In this document: positions 15,023 through 52,458 of the stretch, piece by piece | Layout: each line of letters begins with the position of its first letter | Numbering within the stretch: the first letter of the stretch is position 1 | Assembly: GCF_009905375.1 (NCBI RefSeq) | Contig: NC_133657.1 | Span: 40,605,853 to 40,669,852 of the forward strand | Direction: 5' to 3' | Source of the DNA: Apium graveolens | Taxonomy: Eukaryota > Streptophyta > Magnoliopsida > Apiales > Apiaceae | Length of the DNA: 64,000 nucleotides | Program-made: the position numbers and the translations under genes | The notes under the pieces: model-generated | Told to the model about the DNA's origin: nothing | Database searches by the model: none | The model's input: the letters and a program-made list of their open reading frames with translations, nothing else

Positions 15023-15033
15023 TGGTATCAGAG
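15023..15033 (+). other. primer binding site of C (tRNA-iMet type)
   Basis: TGGTATCAGAG one base after the LTR, complementary to the initiator tRNA-Met 3' end. Confidence 0.9.
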
Positions 15034-17466: not shown

Positions 17467-17484
17467 CCTAAGAAGAGTTCTGTT

Positions 17485-18140: not shown

Positions 18141-18204
18141 ATCTCACTTCATAGTGGCACTGCAGTCTCCATTTAGTAGACATGGAGAGAGGACTGCAAA
18201 TTTG

Positions 18205-19668: not shown

Positions 19669-19680
19669 CAAGTGGGAGAT
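19669..19680 (+). other. polypurine tract of C
   Basis: CAAGTGGGAGAT directly before the 3' LTR; a typical copia plus-strand primer site. Confidence 0.8.
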
Positions 19681-21390: not shown

Positions 21391-21395
21391 AAACA

Positions 21396-23992
21396 TTTGC
21401 ATAAAAACGTAAGGAAACTCATGGATATCTCAAGGATATATCAGGGTATGTATAAGAAACGGTTTTCAGTTTGTACAAGGGTCAGGTATTAGACCAGTAA
21501 TGATTTTTCAGGATATGGCTCTTTGATGTTATTAAGAATGATTAGAGTATAAAAGTTTCTGTGTTTTCAAATCATTCTCTTTCAGTGTTTGGTGTTTGGT
21601 AGTTATACCTTTGGGGAGTAGTATTATATTTGTATGGTTTGGTGTCTAAGATCAACAAAGGACAGATTACAAAGAATGAGGCTTATGGCTCAAGATCAAG
21701 AAAATCAGGGTTCAAGGTTAAATGGTTTAAAGTTCTTGCAATATAAAACAGGAGTTATTTTGAATACTAGCGACATGTTATAACACAGTTTAAAACATTG
21801 GTAATATATCTTGAAGAAAAGTTCAGAAATACTTGCCTTTCAAGGCTTTACAACTATTACTCATCAACTCTGAGTTGACTCTGCTGCTCAGGTTCTAACG
21901 TCCAACCACTAGATCCCATTGGATTCGACTTCGACACTCAGGTCTTTCTGTTGAAACTTTACTTTGCTCGTCGACTTACCACTATGTTAACTTTAGTCCA
22001 TCGTCCACTTTCAGGTTCCCGACTATAACCTACAGGGTCGAAATACCCTACGTTAGGCATCTAGGTCTGCTTGACATATCCTCGATACTAATTCTTACCC
22101 AACGATATTCAAATCCGACTCATAATTATGAATATTGTAATAACATATGCAACAAATAGGGTTCACATCTTAAAGATTGGTTTGCTGTTCATTTTCGGAA
22201 AATATATATACTTTTTATTTTATGAAATCAGGGTTATCGATTAGGCGAAATATTTCATCACATCATGTAACAAAATTCGTATAAACACATACACATATAT
22301 ATATATATTCACTCAACGTCCCAATAATCATCGGATACGTTCCCTTATTTACGTAATTTAGTTTCCCGGAAATCGGGCAGCGCCTCCTTTGTTTATTGGA
22401 CTACCCGTCGAACACAATATCGACGTCAAATCAATTCACAACAACTACAATGACAATCCAAATCTCAATCTAATTGCACGAATCCCAATCACGGATATTA
22501 TTTAACTATTAATCTTATTCGCATTTTATATTTTTATTCATATTAGGACTCAGAATAAATTCATCACCGTCCACCGTCGGCTCACTGAGGCTCATCGCCG
22601 ACGGCGGTAAAATTCGTCGGTACCTGACAAAAATTCAGATTTTCCTAACGAGCTCCACCGATAACTAACTTATAACTTTTTCAAAAAATAAAATCCGAAT
22701 AATCATAAGGGTTTATTCGACATATCTAGCAAAATAATCCGAATAAATATATTAAATATTCATTTCGGAATTTCAGAAAATTATCGAATAAGTAATCATC
22801 AATAATCTGAGATAAACACAGTATATCAGAACTACAGAGTATACAATTTATATTCACGAACATCGAACAACAGCCACAGGACAGCGGCGAATAATCGCCG
22901 GAATTTAGAAACACCAGGAAGAAACAAAACGCAGTCAGTACACATGCAACATAGAATCGTAATCACACAGCAAGCACGCATAATCAACCACACAAAACAG
23001 GCGCACACCGCGCCACCGTACCTCATCACCGGAAGTTAAAGGAAGGGCGGCGGCGGCGGAGACACCGGAAATGGGCGGCACGGTCTCTGGGAACACAAGG
23101 CACAATAAGGAAAGGAATGATGGGGAGAAGATAAAGGAGTAATCAAAGAAATCATAAGAGAAATCAGGAGAAAGAGATATCGATGAGAGAGAACCGAGAG
23201 GAGAGATGAGAGGATAATGAAAAAAAAAATTGATTATATAAATTCATTTTCTTATTCAATTACTCAGCTGCTGCCACGTTGCTTGCTGGTTTAACAGGAA
23301 AGGAACACGTGTCCCATTACTGACTGCAGCCCGGTTTTTATTTCGCATTTCGATATATATACAAATCGAGGTGCTCTTAAAATAGTTCCCGAAAATCGCG
23401 AAAATAATCTTATAATATTATAAATATCCCGAATTAAATAAAAACATGAATTTTGTAATTTTAAAACGATTTTTAAAATGCACTTTATATCTGCTTTTAT
23501 CAATGAAGCGAAACAACGAGCGCGTGAAATTAATCCCGAAAATTTCCAAAATAATTTTAAAATTTTCGGAATATTCCAAACTTAAATAAATATGAGTTTC
23601 ATAATTTTTGAAGAATTCTAGAATTAAATATGGATTTTAAAAATAAAAGCATTCAGAAAATCATTTAAAGATAGTTAATTAATAAAATATTAATTTCTCA
23701 ATTTTATAAAATCCTAAAAATAATTATTGTAATTATAAAATCATAAAAACAATTTTAGAATTATCCCCAATATTTATGCAAATAAATTTGCACTAAATCC
23801 ACTTTTGAAATTAGAAATAATTCAATACGACTCCATAATTAATTGTGCGGATAACCCGATACACTATAAATCACATATGGATAATAATTAAACAACACAT
23901 AGCAGTCAAAACCACCACACATATCTTATTTATTTAATAATTTCCATAATTGCACAATTAAATAATTCAAAAAGAATACACGAGTTGTTATA
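21396..23992 (-). repeat. right LTR of B, second part
   Basis: Continues the right LTR after copia C and ends GAGTTGTTATA, next to the resumed gag of A. It contains the LTR promoter (TATA near 23238) that would have driven B. Confidence 0.9.
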
Positions 23993-24763: not shown

Positions 24764-25490
24764 TGAAGTTTATCTACGATTGGTTCTACCTCTAAGAATT
24801 CTGATGAGAAGAAAGTTGAACCTAGAGTCTCTAATAAAAGGAAAGAAGAGCCTAAAATACAAAAAAAGAAAAAGAAAAAATATAGGACTTCTTTCTAAAA
24901 TTCAGTTAGACAAGAAAAATTGTGAGTTAACTTCTAGGACTCCCAAATCTAGGATTAAGAGAGGTAGAAATGGAAAACAGAGGATAAATAAGGCAAGCAA
25001 CTATAAGTGCATTCCTGATGCTCCTTGGAAAGCTTATTTTAACTATGGTAATACTAATCATATTGCTATTGATTGCAGGTTGCCTAAAAAGAAAATTTCT
25101 AAGATTCATGAGTCTGATATTAGTGGTAGATCATTACTTTACAAACCACAGAACCCTTGTTCTCATTGTGGTATCAGTTGGCATTTTTTTTACACTTATA
25201 AAGATTATCATAATTTGTATCACAACAATTATAATCCTTTGCCAAATTCAATAAAATTGTTGTTTTAAATAGAACTGCTAAACTGATTGTGCATACATCT
25301 TATAGAGCTAAAGATGTCAAGACAAATCCTAATGGAGTAATTCCTAATGGATTAAATCCTGACAAGAAGTCTTCTACTACAAAAATACATAAGATGTCAA
25401 AAAGGACCCAACAAGTGCGGGTTCTTTAAAATTCTAACTGATTTCTATATTTCTGATTACAAGGAAACAAGAAGAATGTGCTTGTCTTGG
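24764..25490 (+). pseudogene. element A gag-protease spacer
   Basis: A Lys-rich stretch with frameshifts, then the frame 24780-25268 with two degenerate Cys/His motifs (NTNHIAIDC and CSHCGISWHFF followed by YHNLYHNNY), a known extra Cys/His region in this copia group. Asn-Pro-Asp repeats follow (NPNGVIPNGLNPDK near 25325-25365). Broken at 25490 by element D inside the protease start. Confidence 0.65.
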
Positions 25491-25660
25491 TGTCACGCCC
25501 CCAACTTAAGCAGCAAATTAAATATAACTATTACAACATTTTAAAAAGAAGTTTACATAACCAACTCCAAGATCTTACAGTTTAGGATTTGGAACAGCCC
25601 AACACTACCAACTATTACATCTGATTAAAAGTACCGAGTCCTCACACAAACTATTATTAC

Positions 25661-25732
25661 TTATTCTACCTGAGCTCGAACATAAACATCAGCATCACAG
25701 GTCTTACGGGCAGTCTGCTTGAATCTAACCAT
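25661..25732 (-). CDS. H3-tail-like short exon of D, 3' LTR copy
   Basis: ATG at 25732, nine bases after a TATTACAG acceptor-like site. Encodes 23 residues beginning MVRFKQTARKTCDAD. After removal of Met this matches the histone H3 N-terminus (ARTKQTARKS) at R2, K4, Q5, T6, A7, R8 and K9, with T for S10. The 5' LTR copy (35129-35200) differs at residues 14 and 16 only, so the tail block is unchanged. The frame can stop at TAA or leave at the CAG|GTAGAA donor. Confidence 0.55.
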   Translation of the reverse strand: MVRFKQTARKTCDADVYVRAQVE

Positions 25733-25741
25733 AGCTGCTAG

Positions 25742-28667
25742 CTGTAATATCTGGGTAAAGCAAGGAGTGAGCCAAATACTCAACAAATGCTAACAGTACG
25801 ACACAAAACATAAATCGAGATATATATTAAAGAATGATAATGGAAATACATAACCAATGGTAACAAGAGATAAAACTATGTGAGATGGCATCATTTTGCT
25901 TGTATCAAAACAATTTTAAAATCATGTCTTAATCAAAATCATTTTATGACGCTACGGATTACAGCCGGTGATCAGCCGCGAAGTAATCCCGAACCTCGCT
26001 GGGTTCTAAAACATTAACGGGAATCCCTAGGCAACTTTTAAGCCTAATATAAGTGTGGAAAGGACTCGCGTCTCAGTCCAGATCCACTATTCAAGGAAAA
26101 CATTTATCCCCTTTGGGACTGAAAACCCATATTTTATTTATTTCAAAAACTGATGCCGAATTATAACAAAATCTCTTTTAACAGTAAACATTTTTATTAA
26201 GGGATTATAGATCAACTCGAAACACGGGAAATATGGTACTAAATCTCAGGGCCATGATTTACAAAATTTTACTCTATTAGGGTAACCAAAAGGTTTTCAT
26301 ATGTCAGAACTTGGACAGGAAAATTTAGTGAGACTAATGGATAATATAAAGGGGTAATGCCAAACTGGGCTTAAAGCAATGGTTTCTCGTCAAGGTACAA
26401 GTGTTGGATCATCAAGAAGATAAGCTTCATGAATACTATGGGTGTTAAGGTATGAAGAAATGATTCTTTAGCTCAGGATATATCAGAGTTGTCAAGCTTT
26501 AGGATAAGAAAGAGGGATATCAATCAATGAGGGATCACTTTGATAAGTTTCTGACTTTCAGGGTTCAAGGTAAGGTTCTATAGGGATTCAAGTATCAGGA
26601 TGAGATATCAATACTTAGGAATCATCAGCATGTTAATCAAGAGGATCAATCAAGTAATATATCAACTCTTCATTTTATCATGGCATTTAACTATCATGAA
26701 AAGGCTTTTGAACTACTTGCAATACATACTCGAGGGTTCATGGCATTTCTATATAATTCAAAGATAAATGAAAGATACGCTTGATTTAAAACATATCAAA
26801 TGACTCAGGATAATTGCATCAATATATATATGAACTGTTTATAGTAAATACGAAGGTCAAGTTGAATCACTTGCCTTGAGAAAGGCTGGTCTGGTTTGAC
26901 TGGTAGGAGCAACTGGAGCTTCACTCGACCTTTATGGCAAGTTTTCCCTCGTCTCGAGATCCTACATAATAATAATAATCCTCATTATAATATATTCTTA
27001 CCATCTTAACCTATTTACAACTTGAAATTAAACACGGATGGCACTTAGGCCTATACGGACTTAATTTTATATTCAGTTTTAAATTACAAAAGTAGACACA
27101 TAGCCACATAATCACATATCATATATTAATACCAATAACACCATATATACCATAATGCAACACTAGGCTTGGATGATCTCGACTCACAACTTAAGTCACT
27201 TGGTCGCTAAACTAGACAAGGTCTTCTAATTTTGGCTTCCTAACTCGATGTGCCTTTCCTAAATTATCCAAAACCTATTGACCCTCACTTGTGCCTTTTG
27301 CTCTACTGACCTTATACTATCTTACAACTATGATGGTTGACCTAATACTCACTTCTAAGTGTTCTAAAACTATGTGATAAGTGAAAGCGCTCACTGGTGC
27401 AAATTTCAGAATGACAACTATAGTTTCTTGAGTGCATTAGGCACTCTTAAACTACAAGTTTTCCTTCAAAACTTTTACACAAGACTCTCCTGACCTAAGG
27501 GCATCTCACAAACTTGATGTGGCTCAAGGGCCTGGCTTAGGCCTTCTTGGGCCTAAACTAAAAGTCCAAGGTTCCCCTCTTTTTCTGGGCAGAAAATGCC
27601 CTGACTTGAATTAACTTGTGACACATGGTTCTAACTCATATCCTATGCACTATGGTTGGAAAAACTTCTCTGACACTCCCTCTAACTAAGGCCCAATAGG
27701 GCCTAATGAGGGCCTACCCATGACATGGTCAAATCTTCCTATTTCTAAGTTCCAACAAAACTGTCCCCTGCTGGACAGATTTTGTTATTCTACTTGTGCA
27801 CCTAACCAAAAGACATGCAAACCTCCAACCAACTCCTAAAACCTTTTATATACTCCCAATACTAACTTCTGGTGGCTTGGGCCTCAAAGTGCACATCAAT
27901 GACATGGTCAAAACTCACTCTAAACCTCAGGGTACTAAACTGATTTTCTGCAGAAACTATAACTCTCATTTATCCAAGGTTTTGACTTGACAAACTCAAC
28001 TACCAACATCCCAATACTTAAACCAAGACTTATACATGGTAATCTACTGAACTAACTCCCTTATTCTCAAAATAACATTGGGTGAGATCATCCTTACCTA
28101 AGGTACAATTATGGCAAAACAAAAGAGATCACATTTCTCAACTCACCAATCATTAAGTTTTTGAAACCACAAGATATGCATTTTATAAAAGATAACCACG
28201 AATTATTACCATGCAACAACAAGCATAAATCAATATTAACACATTATTCCTACTGAAATTAAGGCTCACTAATAAAATCTTTCCAAATGATCAAAATCTT
28301 ATAACATTCTAATAGAAATCCACATGCATGCATGTCCTCGGGTTTTGCAAACCAAAACAACACATTTTCTACATATATTCTACCATAAAATTGACATGCA
28401 AGCCTAGCATAAGCTATACCTAGATGATCACTTAGCATGCAAGGAGTTTTATCAAATTTTCCAACAAAATTCAAGTCATTATCACATAAACATGCAAAAT
28501 TTCAGCAAAACAACAAGAATGATCTCAAGGACCATTCATTCGGCTCCCATATGGTCATGGTCGAATGAAATGGATGGGAATGTCCATTTAATCATCAAGA
28601 GTTTCCTTCTCAAGACTTGGCACTTATCCATTCCTTGTAGTCCTCTCAAAAACAACCCTAAACTCAC
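25742..28667 (-). other. putative leader intron within the LTR of D
   Basis: In sense direction: donor-like TCTT|GTGAGT at 28667, about 2.9 kb, then GGCTCACTCCTTGC with a plant branch-like CTCAC and TATTACAG (acceptor at 25742). The acceptor end matches the layout in B and E better than the donor end does; an alternative donor CAA|GTAAAT lies near 28790. Not observed, inferred. Confidence 0.35.
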
Positions 28668-28941
28668 AAGAATCAAGGTTGTATTTTGAGTTTCACTAAA
28701 ACCTTTACATGCAACCTTTAAACTTAAACTTTCTACTCAAAACTCTTTGAAATATGAGTGATCATGGTATGGGAAGTAATATTTACTTGTGTAAAGAGTA
28801 GAAGCTTGGTTGAGGAATGAAGACAAAAAAATGGGGAGGGGGGTTTCGGCTAAAAGCCGAGAGTGAGAGAGGGAGGAGGGTGGGAGGAGAAAGTGTGGTG
28901 GTGAGTGAAGTGAAATGATCATGTATTTGCTTGTTGTATGG

Positions 28942-28949
28942 TTTTTATA
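28942..28949 (-). promoter_or_regulatory. TATA box of D LTR (3' LTR copy)
   Basis: Minus strand CCAATATAAAAACC, followed by a CT-rich leader (CACCACACTTTCTCC). In the 5' LTR the same place reads CCAATACAAAAACC (near 38420), so the promoter that would drive the element has TATA changed to TACA. Confidence 0.55.
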
Positions 28950-29500
28950 TTGGCAAAAGTGAGTGGAATTATGAATTGACATGATTAGCCTTCCACTTGA
29001 ACTTGGTTCAATTTGCATGCAAGGGTAAAGAGGGAAATTGGCTAGAAAAATAAGAGTTAGTGGGGTTGGAATTGTCCTCTTTGTCCTTGAAAAGAATGAG
29101 AGGGTGTTTTGCATGCAAGGGCTTTCTTGTAATTTGCTAAATATGACAACTAAAATTTATAATGATTTATTTTTATAAAATAAAATACAAGTTCAAAAAT
29201 TATAAAATTTATACCATAAAATAACTTGGATTTTTAGAAACTTTATAAAATCATTTTCATAACTTGTGAACAAAATACCTTTTAAAAGAAAAATTTTCCA
29301 AGGCTTAGAATATTCCTTATAAATCAAAAATAAAGAAATTAAATAAACTCTTGCTTTGAAAAATCATATACTACATAAAGCAAATTTATAATGCAGAAAT
29401 TTGCACTCACACAAACGTACAATCATTGAATATATTTCATTCGGCTATAATATTATACCAAATCCACAAATAATATTACACGAAAATACCGGTTGTAACA

Positions 29501-29535
29501 TCCTCTCCCCCTTAAGGGATTCTGTCCCCAGAATC
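29501..29535 (-). other. polypurine tract and hairpin of D
   Basis: Minus strand AAGGGGGAGAGGA next to the LTR, preceded by GATTCTG-GGGA-CAGAATC (29518-29535), which follows at once on the pol stop codon at 29535-29537. Confidence 0.85.
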
Positions 29536-30126
29536 TAAGAAAACAGATGAGGATACTGGGAACGCATATCAGACTCTAACTCCCAAGTTGATTCTTCGAC
29601 CTTAGGGTTCCTCCAAAGCACTTTCACTATCTTTACCGACTTATTCCTAAGACTCTTTACTTGCCAGTCGAGTATTTTTAACCGGTTGCTCCACAAATGA
29701 CATGTCTGCCTGAATTTCTACAGGTTCATATTCTATCACATGGCTAGCGTCAGGATTGTACTTCTTAAGCAACGACACATGGAACACATTATGCACATGT
29801 TGATACTGAGGTGGTAAGGCCAACTCGTAGGCCACCTTTCCTACTTGACTCAAAATCTCAAAAGGACCTATGTATCTAGGTGCTAACTTCCCTTTCTTGC
29901 CAAATCTCATCAACCCTTTTCTAGGTGACACCTTCAGCAACACAGCTTCGCCAATTTGGAATTGAACATCCTTACGCGCTGGATCCGCATACTTCCTCTG
30001 TCTATCTTGAGCAGCAAGCAACCTTTTCTGAATTAACTTGACTGTGTCATGCAACTGTTGTACCAATTCCGAGCCGAGAATTCTTCCTTCCCCTACCTCA
30101 TCCCAATTTGTTGGTGATCTACATTT
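29535..30126 (-). pseudogene. pol: D integrase C-terminus and chromodomain
   Basis: After a TGA at about 30104-30106 (an Arg codon CGA by family pattern), the frame carries the integrase C-terminal domain: [52 protein letters not shown]. One extra A in an A-run near 29675 then shifts the frame. In the next frame a chromodomain is readable at 29540-29670, with KIVKVLWRNPKVEESTWELE and a terminal SQYPHLFS. Chromodomains of chromoviruses direct integration to marked chromatin. The insertion could be a sequencing error in a homopolymer. Confidence 0.85.
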
Positions 30127-31482
30127 TCATCCGTACAATGCTTCGTATGGTGGCATGCCGATACTGGAATGATAGTTGTTATTATAAGAGAATTCAATCA
30201 ATGGCAAGTGGTCTTCCCAACTTCCTGCAAAATCGATTGCACAACTGCACAACATGTCTTCAATGGTTTGAATTGTCCTTTCACTCTGGCCATCAGTCTG
30301 TGGGTGGTACGCCGTGCTCATATTCAACTTCGTGCCAAGACATTCCTGAAATTGCTTCCAGAATGTCGAGTTAAAGCGGGGATCTCTATATGAAACTATT
30401 GATACGGGTACTCCATGCCTTAGTATGATTTCGCGCACATACAAATGAACCAACTTGTCCAGTGACGACTTCTCATTTATTGGAAGGAAATGCGCTGACT
30501 TCGTAAGACGATCAATTATAACCCATATTGCGTCATGTCCGGATTTCGTTCGCGGTACTCCTACTATAAAGTCCATAGCGATATTTTCCCATTTCCATTC
30601 TGGAATCTTCAAGGGCTGAATTAATCCGCTTGGTCGTTGATGTTCTGCCTTCACTTTCTGACAAGTATAGCACTTCGTAACCCATTCTGCCACGTCTCGC
30701 TTCATATTTGGCCACCAAAAGTTCTTCTTTAAGTCTCGATACATCTTGGTGCTTCCCGGGTGGATTGAAAATTTCGAATTGTGGGCTTCATGGAGGATCT
30801 CATTCTTTAATTCAAGTACATGAGGAATCCATATTCTGGATGAAAACCTTAGTATCCCTTGCTCATCCCTTTGAGTATTAATCTTCTCTCCAGATAACTG
30901 ATTCTTCTCTTTCTCCATTACTTCTTCTTGACACTTCTTTATCTTTTCCACTAGTGTTGGCTGAAAGGTCATTGTACGACAAACTTCCTCGACTTTTCCG
31001 CAAGCACAAAGTTCCAATTCCAATCTCTCGATTTCTTCAGATAACTCTTTTGATGTTATCATCATATTCAGTCTCTCCTTCCTACTCAGAGCATTGGCCA
31101 CTACATTCGCCTTTCCAGGATGGCAATTTATCGAACAGTCATAGTCCTTGATCAATTCCAGCCATCTCCGCTGCCTCATATTGAGCTCTTTCTGAGTAAA
31201 AATGTACTTTAAACTCTTGTGATCCATGTAGATTTCACACTTCTCTCCGTAGAGGTAATGTCTCCAAATCTTAAGTGCGAACACTATGGCGGCTAGTTCT
31301 AAGTCATGCGTCGGGTACTTTAACTCATGCGGTTTTAACTGTCTTGACGCATATGCGATCACTTTACTGTGTTGTATCAACACACAACCCAAACCCTTAT
31401 GTGAAGCGTCGCTGAATATTACAAAGTTCCCTTGATCATCTGGAAGTACCAACACCGGAGCTGTTACCAACTTCTGCTTCAA
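30127..31482 (-). pseudogene. pol: D RNase H and integrase
   Basis: 451 codons open. RNase [16 protein letters not shown] near residue 25 and [17 protein letters not shown] near 80. The VADALSR motif reads VANALSRK near 130, so its conserved Asp is Asn. Integrase: zinc-binding H-H-C-C ([13 protein letters not shown] ... CYTCQ) about residues 230-275; core Asp in MDFIVGVP (about 303), Asp in SYRDPRF (about 363), Glu in [10 protein letters not shown] (about 405); then [12 protein letters not shown]. This is the strand-transfer enzyme. The frame is separated from RT by a 7-base insertion and from the tail by a stop. Confidence 0.95.
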
Positions 31483-31516
31483 CTCTTGAAAGCTATCCTC
31501 ACATTCTGCACTCCAT

Positions 31517-34147
31517 TTAAACTTTTGATTCTTTTTGGTTCTTGGTCAATGGCGTGGCGATTTTCGAAAAATCCTTGACAAACCTTCTGTAGTATCCTGC
31601 CAATCCTAGAAAACTTTGCACTTCCGTAGGAGTCTTTGGCCTCTCCCAACTAATAACTGCCTCAATCTTTGCCGGATCCACTTTAACTCCCTCATTTCCA
31701 ATGACATGCCCCAAAAATTGAACTTCCTTTAACCAAAACTCACATTTGGTAAACTTGGCATACAACTTCTCTTGCCGGAGTATCTCCAATGCTATCCAGA
31801 GGTGCTGCTTATGTTCTTCTTCCGACTTAGAATAAATAAGGATGTCATCAATAAATACCATGACAAATTTGTCCAAATACTTCTTAAATACTCGATTCAT
31901 CAGATCCAAAAATGCGGCCGGAGCGTTGGTCAGTCCAAACGGCATTACTAGGAATTCATAATGCCCATATCTGGTCCTGAATGCGGTCTTGGGAATATCT
32001 TCTTCTTTGATCTTTAATTGATGGTATCCCGATCTCAAGTCAATCTTCGAAAAGCATTTTGCTCCCTTCAACTGGTCAAAAAGGTCATCTATCCTTGGTA
32101 GCGGGTAGCGGTTCTTGATCGTTACCTTATTCAACTCCCGATAATCTATGCATAGACGCATACTCCCATCTTTCTTCTTTACAAATAGAACAAGTGCTCC
32201 CCATGGCGACGCACTTGGCCGTATCACTCCCTTATCCAACAATTCTTGTAGCTGGCTCGCCAACTCTTTCATTTTTGCTGGTGCCATCCTATATGGGGCC
32301 TTTGAAACTGGTTCCGTTCCTGGAGCAAGGTTCATCTCGAACTGGATTTGTCGATCTGGTAGTAAGCCTGGTAGTTCGTCGGGAAACACATCTGGGAACT
32401 CGTTAACTACAGGGATATCTTCCATGCTGGGGCTGCCTTTTTCCGAATCTACTACATAAGCTAGGAACGACTCACAACCTTTTCTAAGTAGCTTCTTAGC
32501 CTGAACAATTGTAAGAAATAGTTGCTCTTGCCTCTGCCCCTTAAATACTACCTTCTCTCCACTCTTTGTCTTTAAATACACTTTCTTGGTCTTACAATTA
32601 ATCTGAGCGCTATTCTCTCCTAACCAATCCATTCCTAAAATTATATCAAACTCTCCCAACTTGAAGAGTATCAAGTCGGCTGAAAACATATACCCCAAAA
32701 TATCAATCTCACACTTTGGACAAAATTGATTCACAGGAATCTTCTCTTGGTTCGCAATTACCACATTTACTACCTCACTCATAACCATTTTATCACATTG
32801 GAGCTTATCAACAAAAGTTTCTGATATGAAAGATCTTGTTGCTCCCGAATCAATCAATACTTTAGCTTTGACATTATTGAGTAAAAGTGTACCTGCTATC
32901 ACCTCAGAATTCTGAATAGCATCCTTCATCTTCAGATCAAATGTCCTTGTTGTTGCTTGCGGGGTTGGTGTAGGTGGTGGAGGTAGTGCCAATACCTCAG
33001 CTGGCACGCTTGCACTGGCACTTGCCACATTCATTAAAGCTTTGACTAGTCCAGTTGCCTTGCACTCCCTAGCTATGTGTCCAGTCTTCCCACACTTGTA
33101 ACACGTAACTCCTGGCTTCGGCATCTTGCACTCATTCGCCAAATGTCCCTTCTGATTGCACCTGTAGCATATCATGCTCAGCTTATTACACACTCCGGGG
33201 TGCCTTCTTCCGCAGTGCTTGCATTCTGGCCTCTGGAACCTGTTTTCTCCAACTTGCCCTTGGCTTGCCTGATTGTTCCCCTTCGATTCTTGCCTTTTGC
33301 CCAAATTTCCTTTCTTTTCAAAATTTCCGCCCTTCTGGAATCCGATCCTCTTTACATTCCGATCTTGTGAACTTCCCACTTCAGACTTTTCTCCATAAAA
33401 TGGAACCTTCCTCTTCTTGTTATTTCTCTCCTTCCTTGACTGCATCCCATTATTCTCAATCAAAGCAGCTTTCTGTACTACTCCCGCATAAGTTTCAAGC
33501 TCAAACATAGCCACTCTATCTCTGATCCAAGGCTCCAATCCTTGCTGAAATTTCTTGGCTTTTTCCTCCTCAGTGCTGGTATACTTCATCACAAACCTTG
33601 ACAATTCAGTAAACTTCTTCTCATACTCCAGTACAGTCATGTTCCCTTGCTTCAACTCAAGAAATTTTAGCTCCATCTGATTCTGCATGTACTTAGGGTA
33701 ATACTTGTCCAGAAATAACTTCTTAAATCTCTCCCAAGAAACCTGCCAAGTTGCTTCCATAGCTTTTACTGACTCCCACCAATAGATGACTTCTCCCTTC
33801 AAGAAGTAAGTAGCATACGGCGTCTTCTGATCGTCTCCTAACTGTACCAACTCAAAAGCCCTTTCCATCTCCTTGATCCATGTGTTAGCTATCACTGGAT
33901 CAGTGGTATCATGAAATGCAGGTGGATTCACATTCTGAAAAGCCTTGAAAGTGACAATTTGTCTAGGTGGTACTGGTGGTTCAGGTGGTTGGTGTGGCTC
34001 ACGGTTATCTTGGTTTTCAATTCGTTGTTGAAGAGTTAGTTGTTGTTGAGCTATAACATTGGTATGCTGTTGCAAAGTTTCCAGTAGTCGAAGAATATTT
34101 GGGTCTGTGGTGGATGTGGTTGTTGGGTTCTTCTTTTTGGGAGGCAT
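31517..34147 (-). pseudogene. gag-pol: D gag-protease-reverse transcriptase polyprotein
   Basis: 876 codons from ATG 34147 ([11 protein letters not shown]). Gag retrotrans domain about residues 70-235 ([32 protein letters not shown]). Three Cys/His motifs at about 307-355: [40 protein letters not shown]. Protease DSGATRSF near 431 and IILGMDWL near 510. RT from YRMAP near 620: [30 protein letters not shown] and catalytic [10 protein letters not shown] near 763. Both active-site Asp are present. The frame ends through a small insertion near 31530 ([13 protein letters not shown]). By length and motif content this was recently functional. Confidence 0.95.
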
Positions 34148-34464
34148 AATCCTAAAATAAAAGTTATGTCAAAACAGATATGAATGATAAAATGATTCGA
34201 GGGTATCGCATGGCATTCTCATTTACATATGGGGTCAAGTTTCCAAATTAAGCAGATATGATGATGCATATAAAACGTAAAATAACAGTTGAGAGCAAAT
34301 GGAACAATAGCACATAATTATTGAAATTTTAAAGGTCACAATACATAGGATTATGACAAGGTCTGATTCTAGGAATAACAGGCTTATTTAAAGGAAACAA
34401 CGGAAACAACTAGGGATTCCACAGAGTCTGATAGTACAACAACATGAATGGTAAATGGAAAGAA
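34148..34464 (-). other. spacer between accessory frame and gag of D
   Basis: About 317 bases, AT-rich, no open frame with recognisable product. In sense it is the leader just before the gag ATG. Confidence 0.5.
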
Positions 34465-34821
34465 CTAAGGCTCCACTCCATCTGAACGGGGCTTGGTAGT
34501 CTTTTTCTCTCGAAACGTCTTCACAATGCTCTGGAGCTCATCCGCCACCATCTGAATGACATACTGGCTGGTGCGGTCCCGGTGCGCTGGCATCTCCTCA
34601 AGCTTAGTGTTGACGTACTGAACCAAGGTCTCAAGTCTCGTAGTCATCTGCTCCTTGGGCTTTCCTTCATAGTTTTGGCTGTCCGGATACACGTTCTTCA
34701 GTCGGTCTATCAGTCGGTCGTACTTGCCCTGAAGCATGTCGAACTCGCGCCTCAACTCAGCATACACTGAGAAAGCAATAGTGTCGTCCGACCCAGAGGA
34801 TGACGAGGAATGCGCCCTTTG
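34465..34821 (-). CDS. D accessory frame upstream of gag, putative third exon
   Basis: Open from an AG acceptor-like site (TTGTCAG, ending at 34822) to TGA; 118 residues. It starts QRAHSSSSSGSDD, then is mostly helical and charged: AELRREFDMLQGKYDRLIDR, QMTTRLETLVQYVNTKL and VADELQSIVKTFREKK, suggesting a coiled coil. The first in-frame ATG is some 30 codons in, so the N-terminus probably comes from another exon. The LTR exon ending CAG|GTAGAA at 35137 joins in phase 0 across a 316-base intron; the product would be 139 residues with an H3-like N-terminus. Function unknown. The C-terminal half looks distantly like that of the E accessory frame (51116-51964). Confidence 0.5.
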   Translation of the reverse strand, partial: QRAHSSSSSGSDDTIAFSVYAELRREFDMLQGKYDRLIDRLKNVYPDSQNYEGKPKEQMTTRLETLVQYVNTKLEEMPAHRDRTSQYVIQMVADELQSIVKTFREKKTTKPRSDGVEP

Positions 34822-35137
34822 CTGACAACCAATAAGAGGAGTATTAATAATAATTTACTTAACCTACTCTCTCGTATATTATCTATAACCTACACACATA
34901 TCCTATAACCTATTTGGGCTGTCCAGGGACTCTAAACCGTAACTCTGATACCAAAACCTGTCACGCCCCCAACTTAAGCAGCAAATTAAATATAACTATT
35001 ACAACATTTTAAAAAGAAGTATACATAACCAATTCCAAGATCTTACAGTTTAGGGTTTGGAACAGCCCAACACTACCAACTATTACATCTGATTAAAAGT
35101 ACCGAGTCCTCACACAAACTATTATTACTTATTCTAC
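34822..35137 (-). other. putative intron spanning LTR end and PBS of D
   Basis: Donor CAG|GTAGAA at 35137, acceptor TTGTCAG ending at 34822; 316 bases. It removes the end of the LTR and the primer binding site, so a spliced RNA could not be reverse transcribed in the normal way and would serve as mRNA only. E has the same arrangement with the same AG|GTAGAA donor. Confidence 0.4.
34943..34953 (-). other. primer binding site of D (tRNA-iMet type)
   Basis: Minus strand TGGTATCAGAGTTACGG, five bases inside the LTR border at 34959. Confidence 0.9.
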
Positions 35138-38100
35138 CTGAGCTCGAACATAAGCATCAGAATCACAGGTCTTACGGGCAGTCTGCTTGAATCTAACCAT
35201 AGCTGCTAGCTGTAATATCAGGGTAAAGCAAGGAGTGAGCCAAATGCTCAACAAGTGCTAACAGTACGACACAAAACATAAATCGAGATATACATTAAAG
35301 AATGACAATGGAAAGACATAACCAATGGTAATAAGAGATAAAACTATGTGAGATGGCATCATTTTGCTTGTATCAAAACAATTTTAAAATCATGTCTTAA
35401 TCAAAATCATTTTATGACGCTACGGATTACAGCCGGTGATCAGCCGCGAAGTAATCCCGAACCTCGCTGGGTTCTAAAACATTAACGGGAATCCCTAGGA
35501 AACTTTTAAGCCTAATATAAGTGTGGAAAGGACTCGTGTCTCAGTCCAGATCCACTATTCAAGGAAAACATTTATCCCCCTCTGGACTGAAAACCCATAT
35601 TTTATTTATTTCAAAAACTGATGCCGAATTATAACAAAATCTCTTTTAACAGTAAACATTTTTATTAAGGGATTATAGATCAACTCGAAACACGGGAAAT
35701 ATGGTACTAAATCTCAGGGCCATGATTTACAAAATTTTACCCTATTAGGGTAACCAAAAGGTTTTCATATGTCAGAACTTGGACAGGAAAATTTAGTGAG
35801 ACTAATGGATAATATAAAGGGGTAATGCCAAACTGGGCTTAAAGCAATGGTTTCTCGTCTAGGTACAGGTGTTGGATCATCAAGAAGATAAGCTTCATGA
35901 ATACTATGGGTGTTAAGGTATGAAGAAATGATTCTTTAGCTCAGGATATATCAGAGTTGTCAAGATTTAGGATAAGAAAGAGGGGTATCAATCAATGAGG
36001 GATCACTTTGATAAGTTTCTGACTTTCAGGGTTCAAGGTAAGGTTCTATAGGGATTCAAGTATCAGGATGAGATATCAATACTTAGGAATCATCAGCATG
36101 TTAATCAAGAGGATCAATCAAGTAATATATCAACTCTTCATTTTATCATTTTATCATGGCATTTAACTATCATAAAAAGGCTTTTGAACTACTTGCAATA
36201 CATACTCGAGCGTTCATGGCATTTCTATATAATTCAAAGATAAATGAAAGATACGCTTGATTTAAAACATATCAAATGACTCAGGATAATTGCATCAATA
36301 TATGTATGAACTGTTTATAGTAAATACGAAGGTCAAGTTGAATCACTTGCCTTGAGAAAGGCTGGTCTGGTATGACTGGTAGGAGCAACTGGAGCTTCAC
36401 TCGACCTTTATAGAAAGTTTTCCCTCATCTCGAGATCCTACATAATAATAATAATCCTCATTATAATATATTCTTACCATCTTAACCTATTTACAACTTG
36501 AAATTAAACACGGATGGCACTTAGGCCTATACGCACTTAATTTTATATTCACTTTTAAATTACAAAAGTACACACATAGCCATATAATCACATATCATAT
36601 ATTAATACCAATAACACCATATATACCATAATGCAACACTAGGCTTGGATGATCTCGACTCACAACTTAAGTCACTTGGTCGCTAGACTAGACAAGGTCT
36701 TCTAATTTTGGCTTCCTAACTCGATGTGCCTTTCCTAAATTATCCAAAACCTATTGACCCTCACTTGTGCCTTTTGCTCTACTGACCTTATACTATCTTA
36801 CAACTATGGTGGTCGACCTAATACTCACTTCTAAGTGTTCTAAAACTATTTGATAAGTGAAAGCGCTCACTGGTGCAAATTTCAGAATGACAACTATAGT
36901 TTCTTGAGTGCATTAGGCACTCTTAAACTACAAGTTTTCCTTCAAAACTATTACAAAAGACTCTCCTGACCTAAGGGCATCTCAAAAACTTGATTTGGCT
37001 CAAGGGCCTGGCTTGGGCCTTCTTGGGCCTAAACGAAAAGTCCAAGGTTCCCCTATTTTTCTGGGCAGAAAACGCCCTGACTTGAATTAACTTGTGACAC
37101 ATGGTTTTAACTCATATCCTATGAACTATGGTTGGAAAAACTTCTCTGACACTCCCTCTAACTAAGGCACAATAGGGCCTAATGAGGGCCTACCCATGAC
37201 ATGGTCAAATCTTCCTATTTCTAAGTTGCAACAAAACTGTCCCCTACTGGACATATTTTGTTATTCTACTTGTGTACCTAACCAAAAGACATGCAAACCT
37301 CCAACCAACTCCTAAAACCTTTTATATACTCCCAATACTAACTTCTGGTGGCTTGGGCCTCAAAGTTCACATCAATGACATGGTCAAAACTCACTCTAAA
37401 CCTCAGGGTACTAAACTGATTTTCTGCAGAAACTATAACTCTCATTTCTCCAAGGTTTTGACTTGACAAACTCAACTACCAACATCCCAATACTTAAACA
37501 AAGACTTATACATGGTAATCTAATGAACTAACTCCCTTATTCTCAAAATAACCTTGGGTGAGATCATCCTTACCTAAGGTACAATTATGGCAAAATAAAA
37601 GAGATCACATTTCTCAACTCACCAATCATTAAGTTTTTGAAACCACAAGATATGCATTTTATAAAAGATAACCACGAATTATTACCATGCAACAAGAAGC
37701 ACAAATCAATATTAACACATTATTCCTACTGAAATTAAGGCTCACTAACAAAATCTTTCCAAATGATCAAAATCTTACAACATTCTAAGAGAAATCCACG
37801 TGCATGCATGTCCTCGAGTTTTGCAAACCAAAACAACACATTTTCTACATATATTCTACCATAAAATTGACATGCAAGCCTATCATAAGCTATACCTAGA
37901 TGATCACTTAGCATGCAAGGAGTTTTATCAAATTTTCACCATAAAATTCAAGTCATTATCACATAAACATGCAAAATTTGAGCAAAATAACAAGAATGAT
38001 CTCAAGGACCATTCATTCGGCTCCCATATGGTCATGGCCAAATGAAATGGATGGGAATGGCCATTTAATCATCAAAAGTTTCCTTCTCAAGACTTGGCAC

Positions 38101-38973
38101 TTATCCATTCCTTGTAGTCCTCTCAAAAACAACCCTAAACTCACAAGAATCAAGGTTGTATTTTGAGTTTCACTAAAACCTTTACATCCAACCTTTAAAC
38201 TTAAACTTTCTACTCAAAACTCTTTGAAATATGAGTGATCATGGTATGGGAAGTAACATTTACTTGTGTAAAGAGTAGAAGCTTGGTTGAGGAATGAAGA
38301 TAAAAAAATGGGGAGGGGGGTTTCGGCTAAAAGCCGTGAGTGAGAGAGGGAGGAGGGAGGAGAAAGTGTGGTGGTGAGTGAAGTGAAATGATCATGTCTT
38401 TGCTTATTTTATGGTTTTTGTATTGGAAAAAGTGAGTGGAATTAGGAATTGACATGATTAGCCTTCCACTTGAACTTGGTTCAATTTGCATGCAAGGGTA
38501 AAGAAGGAAATTGGCTAGAAAAATAAGAGTTAGTGGGGTTGGAATTGTCCTCTTTGTCCTTGAAAAGAATGAGAAGGTGGTTTGCATGCAAGGGCTTTCT
38601 TGTAATTTTCTAAATATGACAACTAAAATTTATAATGATTTATTTTTATAAAATAAAATACAAGTTCAAAAATTATAAAATTTATACCATAAAATAACTT
38701 GGATTTTTAGAGACTTTATAAAATCATTTTCATAATTTATGAACAAAATACCTTTTAAAAGAAAATTTTTCCAAGGCTTAGAATATTCTTTATAAATCAA
38801 AAATAAAGAAATTAAATAAACTCTTGCTTTGAAAAATTATATACTACATAAAGCAAATTTGTAATGCAGAAATTTGCACTTACATAAACGTACAATCATT
38901 GAATATATTTCATTCGTCTTTAATATTATACCAAGTCCATAAATAATATTACACGAAAATACCGGTTGTAACA
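34959..38973 (-). repeat. right LTR of D (5' LTR in sense)
   Basis: 4015 bases, TGTCACGCCC to GGTTGTAACA. Differences from the left LTR are few and scattered; one is a 10-base repeat unit near 36140 (CATTTTATCATTTTATCAT). This indicates a young insertion. Confidence 0.95.
35129..35200 (-). CDS. H3-tail-like short exon of D, 5' LTR copy
   Basis: ATG at 35200 after GATATTACAGCTAGCAGCT. The peptide starts MVRFKQTARKTCDSDAY and would end at TAA (35129-35131). At residue 21 a CAG|GTAGAA donor gives an in-phase route to the accessory frame at 34821. The R-x-K-Q-T-A-R-K block equals H3 residues 2-9 except T3F. In H3, K4 and K9 are methylated and read by chromodomain and PHD proteins; a role as mimic or as donor of these lysines is inference. 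Chance similarity is unlikely at this length and exact position after Met. Confidence 0.6.
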   Translation of the reverse strand: MVRFKQTARKTCDSDAYVRAQVE

Positions 38974-40404
38974 CTTGGACAGTGGTTGTTCAACACATAT
39001 GACTGGAACTAAATCCATGTTATCAGAATATAAAGAGAAGGATCGCCCAATGGTTTCCTATGGTGATTGTAATGTAGGAAAAACACTGGGATATGGAAAT
39101 ATAATCATTGGAAATGTCATCATCTCAAACGTAGCTCTAGTAGATGGACTGAAGCACAATCTGTTGAGCATTAGTCAAATTACCGATAGAGGTTTCTATG
39201 TTGTGTTCTGTGATAATCACTGTAAATTAGTTCATAAGATCACAAAGAAGATTGTTTTCAAAGCCTACAGATATTGAAACATTTATGAAGCCAAACTTTA
39301 TGCAAATACTGATGGTCCTGAAACTTGTTTTGTAACCAAAGCATCAGTAGATAAAAGTTGGAATTGGCACAAGAAGCTTTCTCACCTCAACTTCAATAAT
39401 CTTAATGAACTGGTGAAGAGAGACTTGGTAAGAGGTGTACCTAACATGTACTAATCATCTGATGGTTTGTGTGATGCATGTCAACAAGCCAAGAAAAGAA
39501 GAACCTCTTTCACAAGCAAGTCAGAATCATCCATCAAGAAGCCATATCAAATGTTGTTTTCGGATCTTTTTGGCCCTGTGAATATCATATCCATTAACAG
39601 GAAAAGATATACTCTAGTTGTTGTTAATGAATATACTAGATTTACTTGGGTGTTTTTCTTGCACAGTAAGGATGAAACAGCAGAAATTCTTTTGGATCAT
39701 CTGAGACTGATTGAAAATAGTATAATGTACAAATTCTGAAGAGTGACAATGGGACTGAGTTCAAAAATAGCAAGATGGATGAGATATGCAGATACAAGGG
39801 GATCTCTCAATAATTCTCAACACCTGGAACACCTCAACAAAATTGAGTAGTAGAAAGGAAAAACATGACACTCATTGAAGCTGGTAGGACTATGCTATTG
39901 TAAGTTAATCTACCAACATACTTTTGGGATGAAGCTGTCAACACTGCTTGTTATACTCAAAAACTGACTCTGATTAACATACATGGATTAACTCATTATC
40001 AAATGATCAAGGAAAAGAAGCCAATTTTAAAGCATCTTCACATATTTGGATGCAAGTGTTTTGTCCTAAGAACACATCCTGAAATGCTTGGAAAATTTGA
40101 CAAAAAAACGGATGAAGGGATTTTTGTTGGATACCCTTTATCAAAAGCCTACAAAGTTTTCAATTTGAGAACGAGGATAATTGTTGAATCAAATCATGTT
40201 TCCTTTGATGACAAGAAGATCACTGGAATTGACGAAGGCACGCATGATGAAATTATGTTTGCAAATAAAAGACTCAAGTCAGGAGATAATTCAAATCCTG
40301 ATGATTTGTTTAATTCTGTTGACAAGTTAAATTCTGATGCTGAGTCCGATTCTGATGAAGATTCTGATCCTGATTTACTGTTACTTCACAGACCCGTATA
40401 TTGA
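38974..40404 (+). pseudogene. pol: element A protease, pre-integrase and integrase
   Basis: Resumes after D. Protease DSGCSTHMTG right at the start (active-site DSG intact), then LLSISQITDRGFYV. A stop after KAYRY leads to the GAG-pre-integrase region (WHKKLSHLNFNNLNELV, CDACQQAKKRRTSF), the zinc-binding H-H-C-C. Integrase: LFSDLFGPVNIIS and VVNEYTRFTWVFFL (first Asp block), then a frameshift near 39735 to SDNGTEFKNS (second Asp) and VVERKNMTLIEAGR (Glu). The frame 40003-40404 has the C-terminal part (HIFGCKCFVLR, SDEGIFVGY-like) and an acidic tail. Several TAA/TAG stops stand at Gln positions. Confidence 0.85.
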
Positions 40405-42400: not shown

Positions 42401-42644
42401 TGTAACACCCCCAAATCCGGGGTCGGGGATCCGGGTTGTCACGAGTTCCATTTCCCTTAATAACACCCAATCTTAATAATTAATCAACTACTCTGTACTG
42501 TGACCCCCACAATAAACACACACACCATAAGTTATATTCTCAGAGATGATCATCCAAAAATAATCACAAGTCGTTTTATTCCACAATTACATGCCAATAC
42601 ACCTTAAACAGGTTTCTAAATAAATTTACATTTCTCTTCCATTA

Positions 42645-42797
42645 TTACAACTCATAATATACATAAGTCTGGTACATCATTAGTTGAAAACTTAGCCTAT
42701 TGGTAATTTCTACCTCAGCTACAGCGGCCTCAACGCTTCCAGAAAGCTGCGGAACGTTTCCTATCCGCTTGCGAATTGGGAGCTTGGTCCTGTTCAT
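42645..42797 (-). CDS. H3-tail-like short exon of E, LTR 1 copy
   Basis: ATG at 42797, nine bases after an AACATCAG acceptor-like site. 50-residue frame beginning MNRTKLPIRKRIGNVPQLSG. After Met it matches H3 (ARTKQTARKSTGG) at R2, T3, K4, R8, K9 and G12. It can end at TAA or leave at GAG|GTAGAA after residue 28. All three LTRs keep the first 18 residues. Confidence 0.5.
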   Translation of the reverse strand: MNRTKLPIRKRIGNVPQLSGSVEAAVAEVEITNRLSFQLMMYQTYVYYEL

Positions 42798-42806
42798 CTT
42801 ATCTAT

Positions 42807-45592
42807 CTGATGTTGTGTGATGAAAGAAGAAAGCAAGGGTGAGCAGCAAGCCCACCAAAATAGTATTTATAATGATTAACTATATATGAGCCTTTTCATA
42901 GTACTCATGAAAGTCTTGGTCAAAAGAAATGAACCAAGTTTGATATCTTAATGCGATGAAGTCGCAAAATGTTCAGTATATATACATATATACTTTTCAA
43001 ATTCTTGGAAGTCCTCTTCCATGTATAATATATACAAAGTTCCAGTTTATAACTGTATAAAAAAAATATCGTTGCAAGGTGATCTTATATATCTAACCTT
43101 GTCTCAACGTTTTTCTGAAAGTCTTTGTCATTCATAAGACAAACATTAACTAGATATAAGTTTAAAAAGATGAAGTTACAAGGTACTCCAATATACTTAT
43201 ATCTTTTCCAAATACTACTTGAACTACCACCGTTCAAGTTATAATTAGTTCAAAAGTTCATCACATAGATGAGACTACAAGACAGATTTGAATAGATTAA
43301 ATCTTTGAAGTAGTATTGAAGGAAATGAAGTTATGATATACTTCATTAAGTTCCGATATATATATCCACATATACATCTTCCTTATACAGTCCCTGAAAA
43401 CCTCTGTCATGTAAAGTATGAACAGAGTTTGTAACATCCAATGAATTTTTGGAAGGGAAAACGAATTGTGGCATAAACCCGATATCTTGCTGATCAGGCA
43501 AAGATACCAATAAGTAACCTTTTCTACTAGTAGATGGACGAATTCCCCACTGGTCATCACCCTGGTCGCAATAGGACCTTATGCTGGACTGCCACTCAGC
43601 CACTTATGCATTTGATGGACTCCCACTGAGCCACTTACACTATCATGGACGCCCACTGAGCCCATGTTGCTTATGCCGACTCGATAGATGGACTTACTTC
43701 CCGAACGTTGGGTAAGTAATCAATTCATTTACCAAAACTGCAACCTTGTTGCGAATATAAAATACACCATAGAGCCGGATCCCTCAGGTTTTGAGCGAGT
43801 ATTTAAATCCCCTTTTTAAAAGGAAGATCTTAAATATAAAAATGAGCTTTGGGATCCGCTCTAACTTTTAAAAATCATTTTGAAGACTCGAAAACACTTT
43901 AAAGAGTGTTTGGAGTAATGCTGATTTAATGAAGTAAATCAGTCCCAATATATTTAGAAAATGTTTGTATATTATTATTTAAATAATATTCCCATAAAGA
44001 ATAATCTTTATACAAATAATTGAAGTAGAAGTTGTGAGACTTATACATGAAATGAGTATTAAATAACCAAAGATATACTTATACGAAAGTACTATCTTTA
44101 TTTGAATAATTGAAAATAAGTTTGATTATCGAAACATTATTCTTTAATAAAATAAAGAATATTATTAAATAATAAGCGGAGTCATAATACCTCGAATGAA
44201 TATTTTAAATAATATTCATTAAATAAAATAACGGAGTCATACATCCTCAAATGAATATTCAATTAATAATCATTAATAATATAACTGAGTCATAAGCCCT
44301 CGAATGAATATTCGAAATAATATTCAATAATAAAATAAAGGAGTCATAAGTCCTCGGATGAATATTCGAAATAATATTCAATAATAAAATAAAGTTAAAG
44401 TTATCGAATAAACCTTATTCGATTAATAGTTTTGAAAACTATAACCATATATATATATAAATATATATATTATACTCGGGAACATCGACTCCCGGTTTAG
44501 AAATATGTTCACCTTTTGATCCCCTATACTAAGGGTAAACTCAATACCGCTTATCTCTAGCATAGGTATTATGCAACTGTAAGCATTTTAACCAACAGAT
44601 ATATAATCCAAGAATATAAAACAGGCATGCATATATACCATATCACATGCTACAATATATCGCAAGAACTTGCTAATAACAAATATGCATTTATCGCAAG
44701 ATCATGCATATACACATATACATCACAACAACAGTATAACGGGTAGAAAACTTGCCTGAGCAACTGGGGGTGATAAAAGGCTCGGGACGGGTCTGGTAAC
44801 CTATAAACAACAAGTAAGTTGGAATTAAACCAAAGTCACTTGTAAATCTATACTTTAACTAACTTAGACTCTAACGCTTGTTTTGCGCTTACTGATTCTC
44901 TTAAGTCACTCGAGTACCCTCGGCTCCACCATTTTTAATAATCTAACCATTACAAGTTTTAAGGCGATTCCTTCGCGGGTGTCTTACCAACTGCCTATTA
45001 CACCTTACATAAATGTTTCATACTTCAATTAGTCCTTTAAGGTCTTTAACCTATGTTTCAAAGTAAGGCGAGGGGTAAGGGTTCATTCGCGAAACGTCGT
45101 TACTTAAAACGGCCGTTTCTCGTAAACCGTTCATCGGAATCAAAAGAACCACATATCAAAACGAAGCTCGTAATATGAACTATCTAAACATGGCAATGGT
45201 CAAAACCTAGCAGTGAGTTCAAGGGTTCTGATGTTAAGAACAAAAACATTCTACGGTAAATCGGGCATTACGACGGCTATGTTTACGCAATTTCCCAAAT
45301 TTAAACCATTCCAAAACAACCCATAATTAAGCCACAATCACATCCCAATCCAAACTCCATCCATACCACATCCTAAAAGCCCCAATAAATTCAATATTAA
45401 CATTTATACTTATGCTTAAGCTTGAATTTAACTATACTTAAGTTCTTTAAACCAAAACAACAAGATTCACCATCCATTTCACTACCACTCCAACCCAAAT
45501 TCTAAACCAACAAGCATTAAGCTACTATATCACCATAAAAACTAGAATCATCCTATTTAACAAAGTAAAGCTAGGGTTTGGAGATGATATAC
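42807..45592 (-). other. putative leader intron within the LTR of E
   Basis: Sense direction: AAGGAAG|GTATAT at 45592, a strong plant donor context followed by CTCCAAACCCTAGC; 2786 bases; then TGCTCACCCTTGC, pyrimidine-rich TTTCTTCTTTC and AACATCAG (acceptor at 42807). The same sites recur in LTR 2 and LTR 3. Confidence 0.45.
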
Positions 45593-46550
45593 CTTCCTTG
45601 AAGTGGTGTGAGTAGCTAGGAAGCCTTAAGAAGTCTTGAGATGACTTAGGGATGCTTGGATCTTAAAGGAAAAACAAGAAAATCAAGTTAAAATTCTTGA
45701 AGTCACTATTCATTGTCTTCTTCATTGATTTCTTGAAGAAGATTATGAATGATTTGGAGGCTTAAACTCATAGAATAGCCATAACTATGCATAAGGAATA
45801 CTAGGGAATTATCTTGCCAATTTAGGAAGCCTTGAACTTGAATTTTGAAAATTTTCCCTTTGAAAACTAGGAAAATCCGAGTGCAATGTTCTTGGTGATG
45901 AAAATAAAATTTTGTTTTGATGAAAAATGATTTACTTGGCTTGGTGGATGTAGTTTTGGTTTTTGTTTTAGTTAATTACCTTTTTAGCCTTAAACTTTGT
46001 GTGGTTCCAATTCAACCACATTTCCTTCCTTCCTTTATCATGCTTATATCATCATGTGGTGTCATCCTTCCCTCTTTGTCCTCTTCTCATTGGTTGGATG
46101 ACATCATCCCCTGTAATCTCTTTGATTAACTTCCTAATTGTTTGCCTAATGACCGCTGATCTGTTATACGGTTCGCTTAACTTTCGTTTTCGTTTATCGT
46201 TTGAGGGATCATACCCGGGATCTTATTACTTAGGTTCCCTTAACCTTTCTCAATACATTATATTCCTTTTTATGATCCTCTCTTATAATCCTTTAATTTA
46301 AATCCTTTTTACCCTGTTACCTTATACTCAATTCTTTCCGTATCTAGTGGATTTTCCGGGAAAAAATCAAAGTATTCGGAATTGGATTCTGACGATCTTT
46401 ACATACACTTATATACCATATAGAGTACTAATAAAATCTCAGAATATCAATAACAGAATCCCTACATAGTGGGGCATGAAAAGTTTTCTCATTCAGTAAA
46501 AACACTATTTATAAGGGTTTCAAAATTTTCCAAAAATTGGGGTTATTACA

Positions 46551-51964: not shown

Positions 51965-52458
51965 CTATACGAGAACGAACTATGTTACTATCACGATATT
52001 TATAAGGGTTCCCGTAAGGGTTTTAACTGTCAGTACTATGTTAGGTAGCCCGACTATGAACTTGGCAAGAGTTCTTATTATCTTAGTTATTATCTTAACG
52101 TCACATCATCTCTAAGGTTTATAACGCTTAGCTCTGATACCACTTCTGTAACACCCCCAAATCCGGGGTCGGGGATCCGGGTTGTCACGAGTTCCATTTC
52201 CCTTAATAACACCCAATCTTAATAATTAATCAACTACTCTGTACTGTGACCCCACAATAAACACACACACCACAAGTTATAGTCTCAGAGATTATCATCC
52301 AAAAATAATCACAAGTCGTTTTATTCCATAATTACATGCCAATACACCTTAAACAGGTTTCTGAATAAATTTACATTTCTCTGCCATTATTACAACTCAT
52401 AATATACATAAGTCTGGTACATCATTAGTTGAAAACTTAGCCTATTAGTAATTTCTAC
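51965..52458 (-). other. putative intron spanning LTR end and PBS of E
   Basis: Donor GAG|GTAGAA at 52458, acceptor CGTATAG ending at 51965; 494 bases. The TAG that closes the accessory frame upstream is itself the acceptor, so the third exon starts exactly where the frame opens. A branch-like CTAAC lies in GGGCTACCTAACATAG near 52045. Confidence 0.4.
52132..52142 (-). other. primer binding site of E (tRNA-iMet type)
   Basis: Minus strand TGGTATCAGAGCTAAGC, four bases inside LTR 2; repeated before LTR 3 at about 56446-56456. Confidence 0.9.

Follow-up and report, generated by a model that had tools for sequence, protein, structure and literature searches.

A stretch of 64,000 nucleotides from celery (Apium graveolens), hereafter the window, raises the question of whether a plant chromovirus may encode a spliced accessory protein that begins like the tail of histone H3, the region on which cells place the marks that silence these elements. 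According to the original prediction, a short frame in the 5' LTR is joined, across the LTR end and the primer-binding site (PBS), to a second and longer frame, and the resulting protein mimics H3 in order to bind silencing or targeting factors, or the element's own chromodomain.

The chromovirus-like element in the window

The window contains a 13.5-kb chromovirus-like element on its minus strand (25491-38973), which is flanked by a 5-bp target duplication, CCAAG, at 38974-38978 and 25486-25490. The LTRs start with TG, end with CA and share 97.2-97.3% identity in two alignments. The paired LTRs, the target duplication, the PBS and the domains in gypsy order identify it as a Ty3/gypsy LTR retrotransposon, whose integrase was recognised via its zinc-binding and SH3-like domains. 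The parts of the element are as follows:

34959..38973, minus strand: 5' LTR, TGTTAC...GTGACA, delimited by repeat and BLAST comparison and by its end sequences
25491..29500, minus strand: 3' LTR, delimited in the same way, with a purine tract immediately preceding it
37318..37329, minus strand: TATA-like GTATATAAAAGG, candidate promoter, about 2.1 kb upstream of the exon 1 ATG
34943..34953, minus strand: TGGTATCAGAG, downstream of the 5' LTR, which we take to be the PBS
29647..34168, minus strand: gag-pol, from the ORF list and Pfam, with open stretches 34168-31517, 31545-30127 and 30126-29647
29538..29717, minus strand: chromodomain piece, in a different frame from the integrase end, from a Pfam match

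The TATA-like GTATATAAAAGG is the best-looking of eight such matches in the LTR upstream of the ATG, and may act as the promoter. Within gag-pol, Pfam recognised gag, a zinc knuckle, protease, RT, RNase H, the integrase zinc-binding domain and a Tf2-1-like SH3 domain. The pol region of this copy is interrupted by one frame change and one in-frame stop. Since gag-pol is broken into three stretches and the chromodomain piece lies in a further frame, the window copy probably lacks a functional pol. The chromodomain piece is found at the expected place in its separate frame, and its match to the Pfam Chromo family (E 5e-4, 20.4 bits) is below the curated cut-off of 25.1. The cage-poor chromodomain, the long LTR and the 5' extra ORF suggest placement of the element in the Tekay clade.

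An H3-like exon in the LTR and its proposed splicing

The predicted accessory protein draws on the following features around the junction of the 5' LTR and the internal region, and on one copy in the 3' LTR:

35210..35217, minus strand: TATTACAG, candidate acceptor at the end of an intron in the 5' UTR, from sequence
35138..35200, minus strand: exon 1, MVRFKQTARKTCDSDAYVRAQ, H3-tail-like, from the sequence of the 5' LTR
25670..25732, minus strand: exon 1 copy in the 3' LTR, MVRFKQTARKTCDADVYVRAQ, from alignment, differing at residues 14 and 16 only
34822..35137, minus strand: proposed intron of 316 bases, GTAGAA...TTGTCAG, containing the LTR end and the PBS
34465..34821, minus strand: exon 2, 118 codons and a stop, predicted helical body, from the ORF and the structure of the relative P0008
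34145..34155, minus strand: TTAG|GATT, second candidate 3' splice site, from sequence, with the gag ATG at 34147-34145

The ATG at 35200 on the minus strand opens a 23-codon frame that reads MVRFKQTARKTCDSDAYVRAQVE and then a stop; exon 1 may start upstream of this ATG, at 35209. After Met, both LTR copies match H3 in register at 7 of 10 residues, the window tail being equal to H3 residues 2 and 4-9, so that the predicted H3-like frame in the LTR was borne out by direct reading as well as by this match. The two LTR copies were the best among 766 window ATG frames of at least 20 codons, with the next best reaching an in-register H3 identity of 5/10. The best match was also 5/10 in a control of 41,473 ATG frames from 60 dinucleotide shuffles, and a six-frame scan for KQTARK with at most one substitution matched the two LTR copies only. 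When the 21-residue window exon 1 alone was compared with the PDB, no match was obtained at E up to 10. Alignment of the LTRs confirmed that the first 13 codons are equal between the copies and that residues 14 and 16 differ, as had been noted earlier. However, we rejected this identity as proof of constraint: the LTR pair shows 88 mismatches in 3,746 aligned bases, which predicts about 0.9 change in 39 bases, and the identical first 13 codons are therefore uninformative.

The splice signals of the original prediction were all recovered by direct reading. TATTACAG ends 9 bases upstream of the exon 1 ATG, a donor-like CAG|GTAGAA follows residue 21 of exon 1 (35138|35137), and, after a gap of 316 bases, an acceptor-like TTGTCAG ends at 34822, with both exons being multiples of three (phase 0/0). 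The splice donor consensus usually has a G at +5, which the proposed donor lacks. The proposed intron has an A+T content of 66% and a T content of 37%; the A+T content of exon 2 is 47%. From these sequence features we infer that the window copy would be spliced. As a separate observation, TTTTATTTTAG|GATT lies 4 bases upstream of the gag ATG, and its direct joining to exon 1 would put gag out of frame; this site may allow gag, too, to be translated from a spliced RNA.

To find relatives, the joined protein was compared with 5.8 billion proteins (best 10 of 13 candidates taken), and two further searches used exon 2 alignments, A1 (best 20 of 2,663) and A2 (best 21 of 2,141), as queries. The matches listed by the three protein searches combined comprise 24 distinct relatives, seven of which carry the H3-like exon, namely P0001, P0005, P0022 and P0023 from celery and P0008, P0010 and P0011 from Heracleum. 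In all seven of these gene models, from two genera, the junction of exon 1 with exon 2 falls at the same residue. The joined window protein is 95% identical to celery P0001 at 100% query coverage. Exon 1 is missing from the other 17 of the 24 relatives listed, which are mostly apparent unspliced or truncated exon 2 frames; P0015 and P0021, likewise without exon 1, have exon 2 attached to other sequence. The models are imperfect, with internal gaps in P0005, P0010, P0011 and P0022 and an early end in P0022 and P0023. These seven models support the two-exon accessory protein and its H3 resemblance; the proposed binding to the element's own chromodomain is not supported, as discussed below.

The celery models also bear on the upstream splice site. 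P0005 and P0022 enter exon 1 as L-A-A-M, as though via TATTACAG, and P0023 reads through TATTACAG from upstream LTR sequence, which in the window is likewise open, back to the stop preceding HLLSIW. The celery models with exon 1 carry unrelated residues fused upstream of it, and they may in part be gene-finder output. For celery cv. Challenger, the available text of the genome paper states that each final gene model has Iso-Seq or Tag-Seq support, that models with exons overlapping transposons were discarded and that AgCh gene names are used (PMC12148408). The AgCh_ proteins presumably belong to this annotation, as far as that text describes it, though the names printed there differ in form; the removal of transposon-overlapping models would then explain why the surviving celery models are fused to outside sequence. 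One such model, Apium graveolens P0022, has a precomputed PF00657 domain upstream, which we take to be that of a GDSL-lipase, and extends through the H3-like exon into exon 2. It is a possible host-retrotransposon fusion transcript.

In giant hogweed (Heracleum), exon 1 reads MVRTKQTARKSSNGV(A/T)(E/G)QYVIAQ|Q. All three Heracleum models with the exon start with MVRTKQTARKS, in which H3 residues 2-10 are exact; of the ten residues following Met, nine are those of H3, V for A being the sole difference, which places the Heracleum tail nearer to H3 than the window tail. Exon 2 of Heracleum is 53-56% identical. P0008, which represents 13 clustered sequences, was compared as a whole with the PDB, where 68 different sequences matched at E up to 1. 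The best 60 of these 68 were all H3 or H3 variants (E 0.06-0.8), none of them passing E 0.001. Two more distant relatives were also retrieved: P0020 had an E-value of 0.087 in the A1 search, before it joined A2, and P0024 reached 3.5e-17 with the profile including P0020. Both share 27-29% identity with the first query sequence and show the same Q|QRAQ after an apparent acceptor, a hint that the gene may be wider than Apiaceae. No relative turned up in scans of viral contigs and genome contigs, which fits an element from plants.

The predicted structure of P0008 has a mean pLDDT of 68 and a pTM of 0.39. Its first 30 residues have a mean pLDDT of 36-45, and helices are predicted at 40-71, 78-99 and 106-128, mostly with higher pLDDT than the tail, so that the prediction describes a low-confidence tail on a helical body. 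A Foldseek search with P0008 against the PDB listed 49 matches at E up to 10, none of which reached E <=0.001, and in Pfam searches of five family members no family reached its cut-off and no histone matched at E up to 1. Exon 2 compared with the PDB gave three weak matches, two to keratin and one to Cas6 (E 0.25-0.3). The protein is thus like histone H3 at residues 2 and 4-9 in the window and at residues 2-10 in Heracleum, and unlike it in its body, which is predicted to be an unrelated helical protein with no sign of a histone fold.

Conservation of the tail and competing explanations

Between the two genera, P0008 and P0001 share 9 of 11 residues of block 1-11, 5 of the 10 that follow in exon 1 and 62 of 118 in exon 2, a contrast in tail conservation that is based on 11 residues. 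At both block positions that differ, Heracleum has the H3 residue; by arithmetic from ordinary residue frequencies, such a double agreement would be an approximately 1-in-250 coincidence. KQTARK (residues 4-9) is present in all three Heracleum models and in five of six Apium-type copies, i.e., the two in the window, P0001, P0005, P0022 and P0023, with KQTSRK in P0022. Among these six copies, residues 1-11 show two departures from the majority, an R to I and an A to S change, and residues 12-21 show three; an extra constraint on the tail is therefore not seen among these recent copies.

We consider it reasonably likely, from the sequence and the gene models, that the element specifies a spliced 139-residue accessory protein whose H3 tail would act as a decoy or tether of the H3K9 type. 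The K9-type function is suggested by the pattern of changes in the tail. K9-type binders contact H3 residues around 5-10, and K4-type PHD readers require that A1 be free and that R2 and T3 be contacted. Residues 4-9 are kept, and A1V, T3F and S10T fall where K9-type binding should tolerate change, which points to a mimic of H3 at K9; moreover, A1V and T3F favour K9 over K4, since K4-type readers would be weakened. In the window tail, S10T gives ARKT, which is the automethylation-site motif of animal G9a.

As a first alternative, the LTR may have captured, from a host H3 gene, the end of the leader intron together with the ATG and the opening codons, and this 5' piece would now provide a plain start exon with no mimicry. 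Plant H3.3 genes have a leader intron, and the acceptor just upstream of the ATG resembles such genes. The Heracleum tail also remains H3-like beyond residue 10 (M-RTKQTARKS--G-A), with 12 of the first 16 letters equal to H3, Met included. Nevertheless, we regard plain capture as unlikely: it accounts for the origin of the tail but not for its retention, P0008 and P0001 differing at 2 of 11 residues in the block and at 56 of 118 in exon 2. Capture does not conflict with mimicry.

Another reading treats the basic N-terminus solely as a nuclear-import or nucleic-acid-binding tail, with an incidental likeness to H3. It agrees with the four basic residues among the first ten and with the predicted nuclear localization of Tekay 5' extra ORF proteins in the available text on these elements (PMC11728184). 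However, charge needs no start-registered RTKQTARKS, and the Heracleum tail is exact over nine residues, which makes this reading improbable.

Binding of the tail to the element's own integrase chromodomain had also been put forward. Chromodomains are classical binders of H3 tails, and the element contains a chromodomain piece. Binding of this kind we hold to be very improbable, as the Pfam match is below its cut-off, only one cage aromatic (W) can be placed by eye in 29717-29538, and Tekay-type chromodomains are reported, in the parts of the papers at hand, to have no aromatic cage (PMC6317226; PMC11728184); on the latter two grounds it was rejected. A chance frame in a non-coding LTR, combined with gene-finder error, would fit a window match of only 7/10 and an exon 1 that alone has no PDB match, but it is scarcely credible given that shuffles reach 5/10 at most, that the same junction occurs in 7/7 models with the exon from two genera and that H3 2-10 is exact in Heracleum.

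Proposed mechanism, known systems and neighbouring repeats

For the spliced H3-tail protein that we favour, transcription would start in the 5' LTR, and a leader intron would probably end at TATTACAG; the distance of the TATA-like site, 2.1 kb upstream, would make such an intron useful. Exon 1, close to the LTR end, would provide the start codon and the H3-like tail, removal of the 316-base intron would delete the LTR end and the PBS, and exon 2 would provide the helical body. The spliced RNA, without the PBS, would then be a subgenomic mRNA, while the unspliced RNA would be the genome. Met removal would leave the N-terminus V-R-(T/F)-K-Q-T-A-R-K-(S/T) in H3 register, and this tail would engage a host reader or writer of H3 around K9, as decoy or tether. 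More tentatively, a chromovirus lineage predating the Apium-Heracleum split may carry a dedicated anti-silencing H3-tail mimic on a helical body, made from spliced RNA only. Such a protein, methylated like H3K9 or occupying H3K9 readers or writers, would shield the element from the marking pathway.

To our knowledge, this would, if true, be the first case of a plant retrotransposon with a histone mimic. H3-tail mimicry in transposons and an LTR start exon spliced over the PBS were not found among the best-ranked literature matches. According to the available text of the sunflower study, 5' aORFs are known in Tekay/Del chromoviruses, including sunflower Tekay group 2, rice RIRE3, RIRE8A/B and Retrosat-2, and elements of maize and sorghum (PMC11728184). 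Exon 2 is in keeping with this type, as a sense ORF between the 5' LTR and gag with relatives in Apium and Heracleum. The celery protein is further like the Tekay/Del 5' aORFs, as characterised there, in being an extra protein before gag, conserved among copies and composed of helices and disorder; in contrast to the sunflower Tekay aORF, described as a 402-aa ORF, the celery element has a start exon in the LTR, predicted splicing and an H3-like start (PMC11728184). The terms histone, splic- and intron are absent from the main text of the sunflower paper (PMC11728184).

Influenza NS1 is another parasite protein with a short stretch that resembles the H3 tail. In NS1, as far as the text at hand describes it, the stretch is C-terminal and binding has been reported (PMC12937675), whereas in the celery element it is N-terminal, in H3 register, belongs to an inherited plant retrotransposon and is a putative binding site. 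The use of a subgenomic RNA for an extra protein, predicted here, is shared with retroviral spliced accessory genes and with the spliced env-like RNA of Bagy2, in the portion of the source available (PMC7264820). Unlike in these systems, the celery protein has its start within the LTR, and splicing of its proposed intron would remove the LTR/PBS junction. In the available sections of a review on plant transposable element mimicry, miRNA target mimicry and transcription-factor sponging are covered, and histones are present only as silencing marks or enzymes (PMC12085086); the terms histone, mimic and Tekay are absent from a gene-capture review (PMC13317346). Within the literature searched, and to the extent of the texts available, Tekay 5' extra ORFs and viral histone mimicry were therefore already known separately, and their combination, together with a PBS-spanning splice from an LTR start exon, was not found among the best-ranked matches or in these two reviews. 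The extra ORFs of plant LTR retrotransposons are described, in the accessible text of two papers, as having unknown functions (PMC7264820; PMC11728184). A conserved H3 tail would offer one such ORF a concrete target, the readers and writers of H3K9 and H3K4 in transposon silencing.

The 3' LTR carries the H3-like exon with its donor at 25670-25732, and transcripts started there could put the H3 tail onto downstream host sequence by splicing. Elsewhere in the window, another gypsy-type element has three LTR copies of about 98% identity, at 42401-46550, 52147-56298 and 56461-60603. The second and third of these are approximately 160 bases apart, with a copy of the PBS leader in the gap, which gives an LTR-internal-LTR-leader-LTR tandem. 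Finally, 3487-15021 and 12647-23992 contain five blocks of about 700-1,700 bases repeated in pieces at 96-98% identity, which suggests another element that was interrupted or duplicated.
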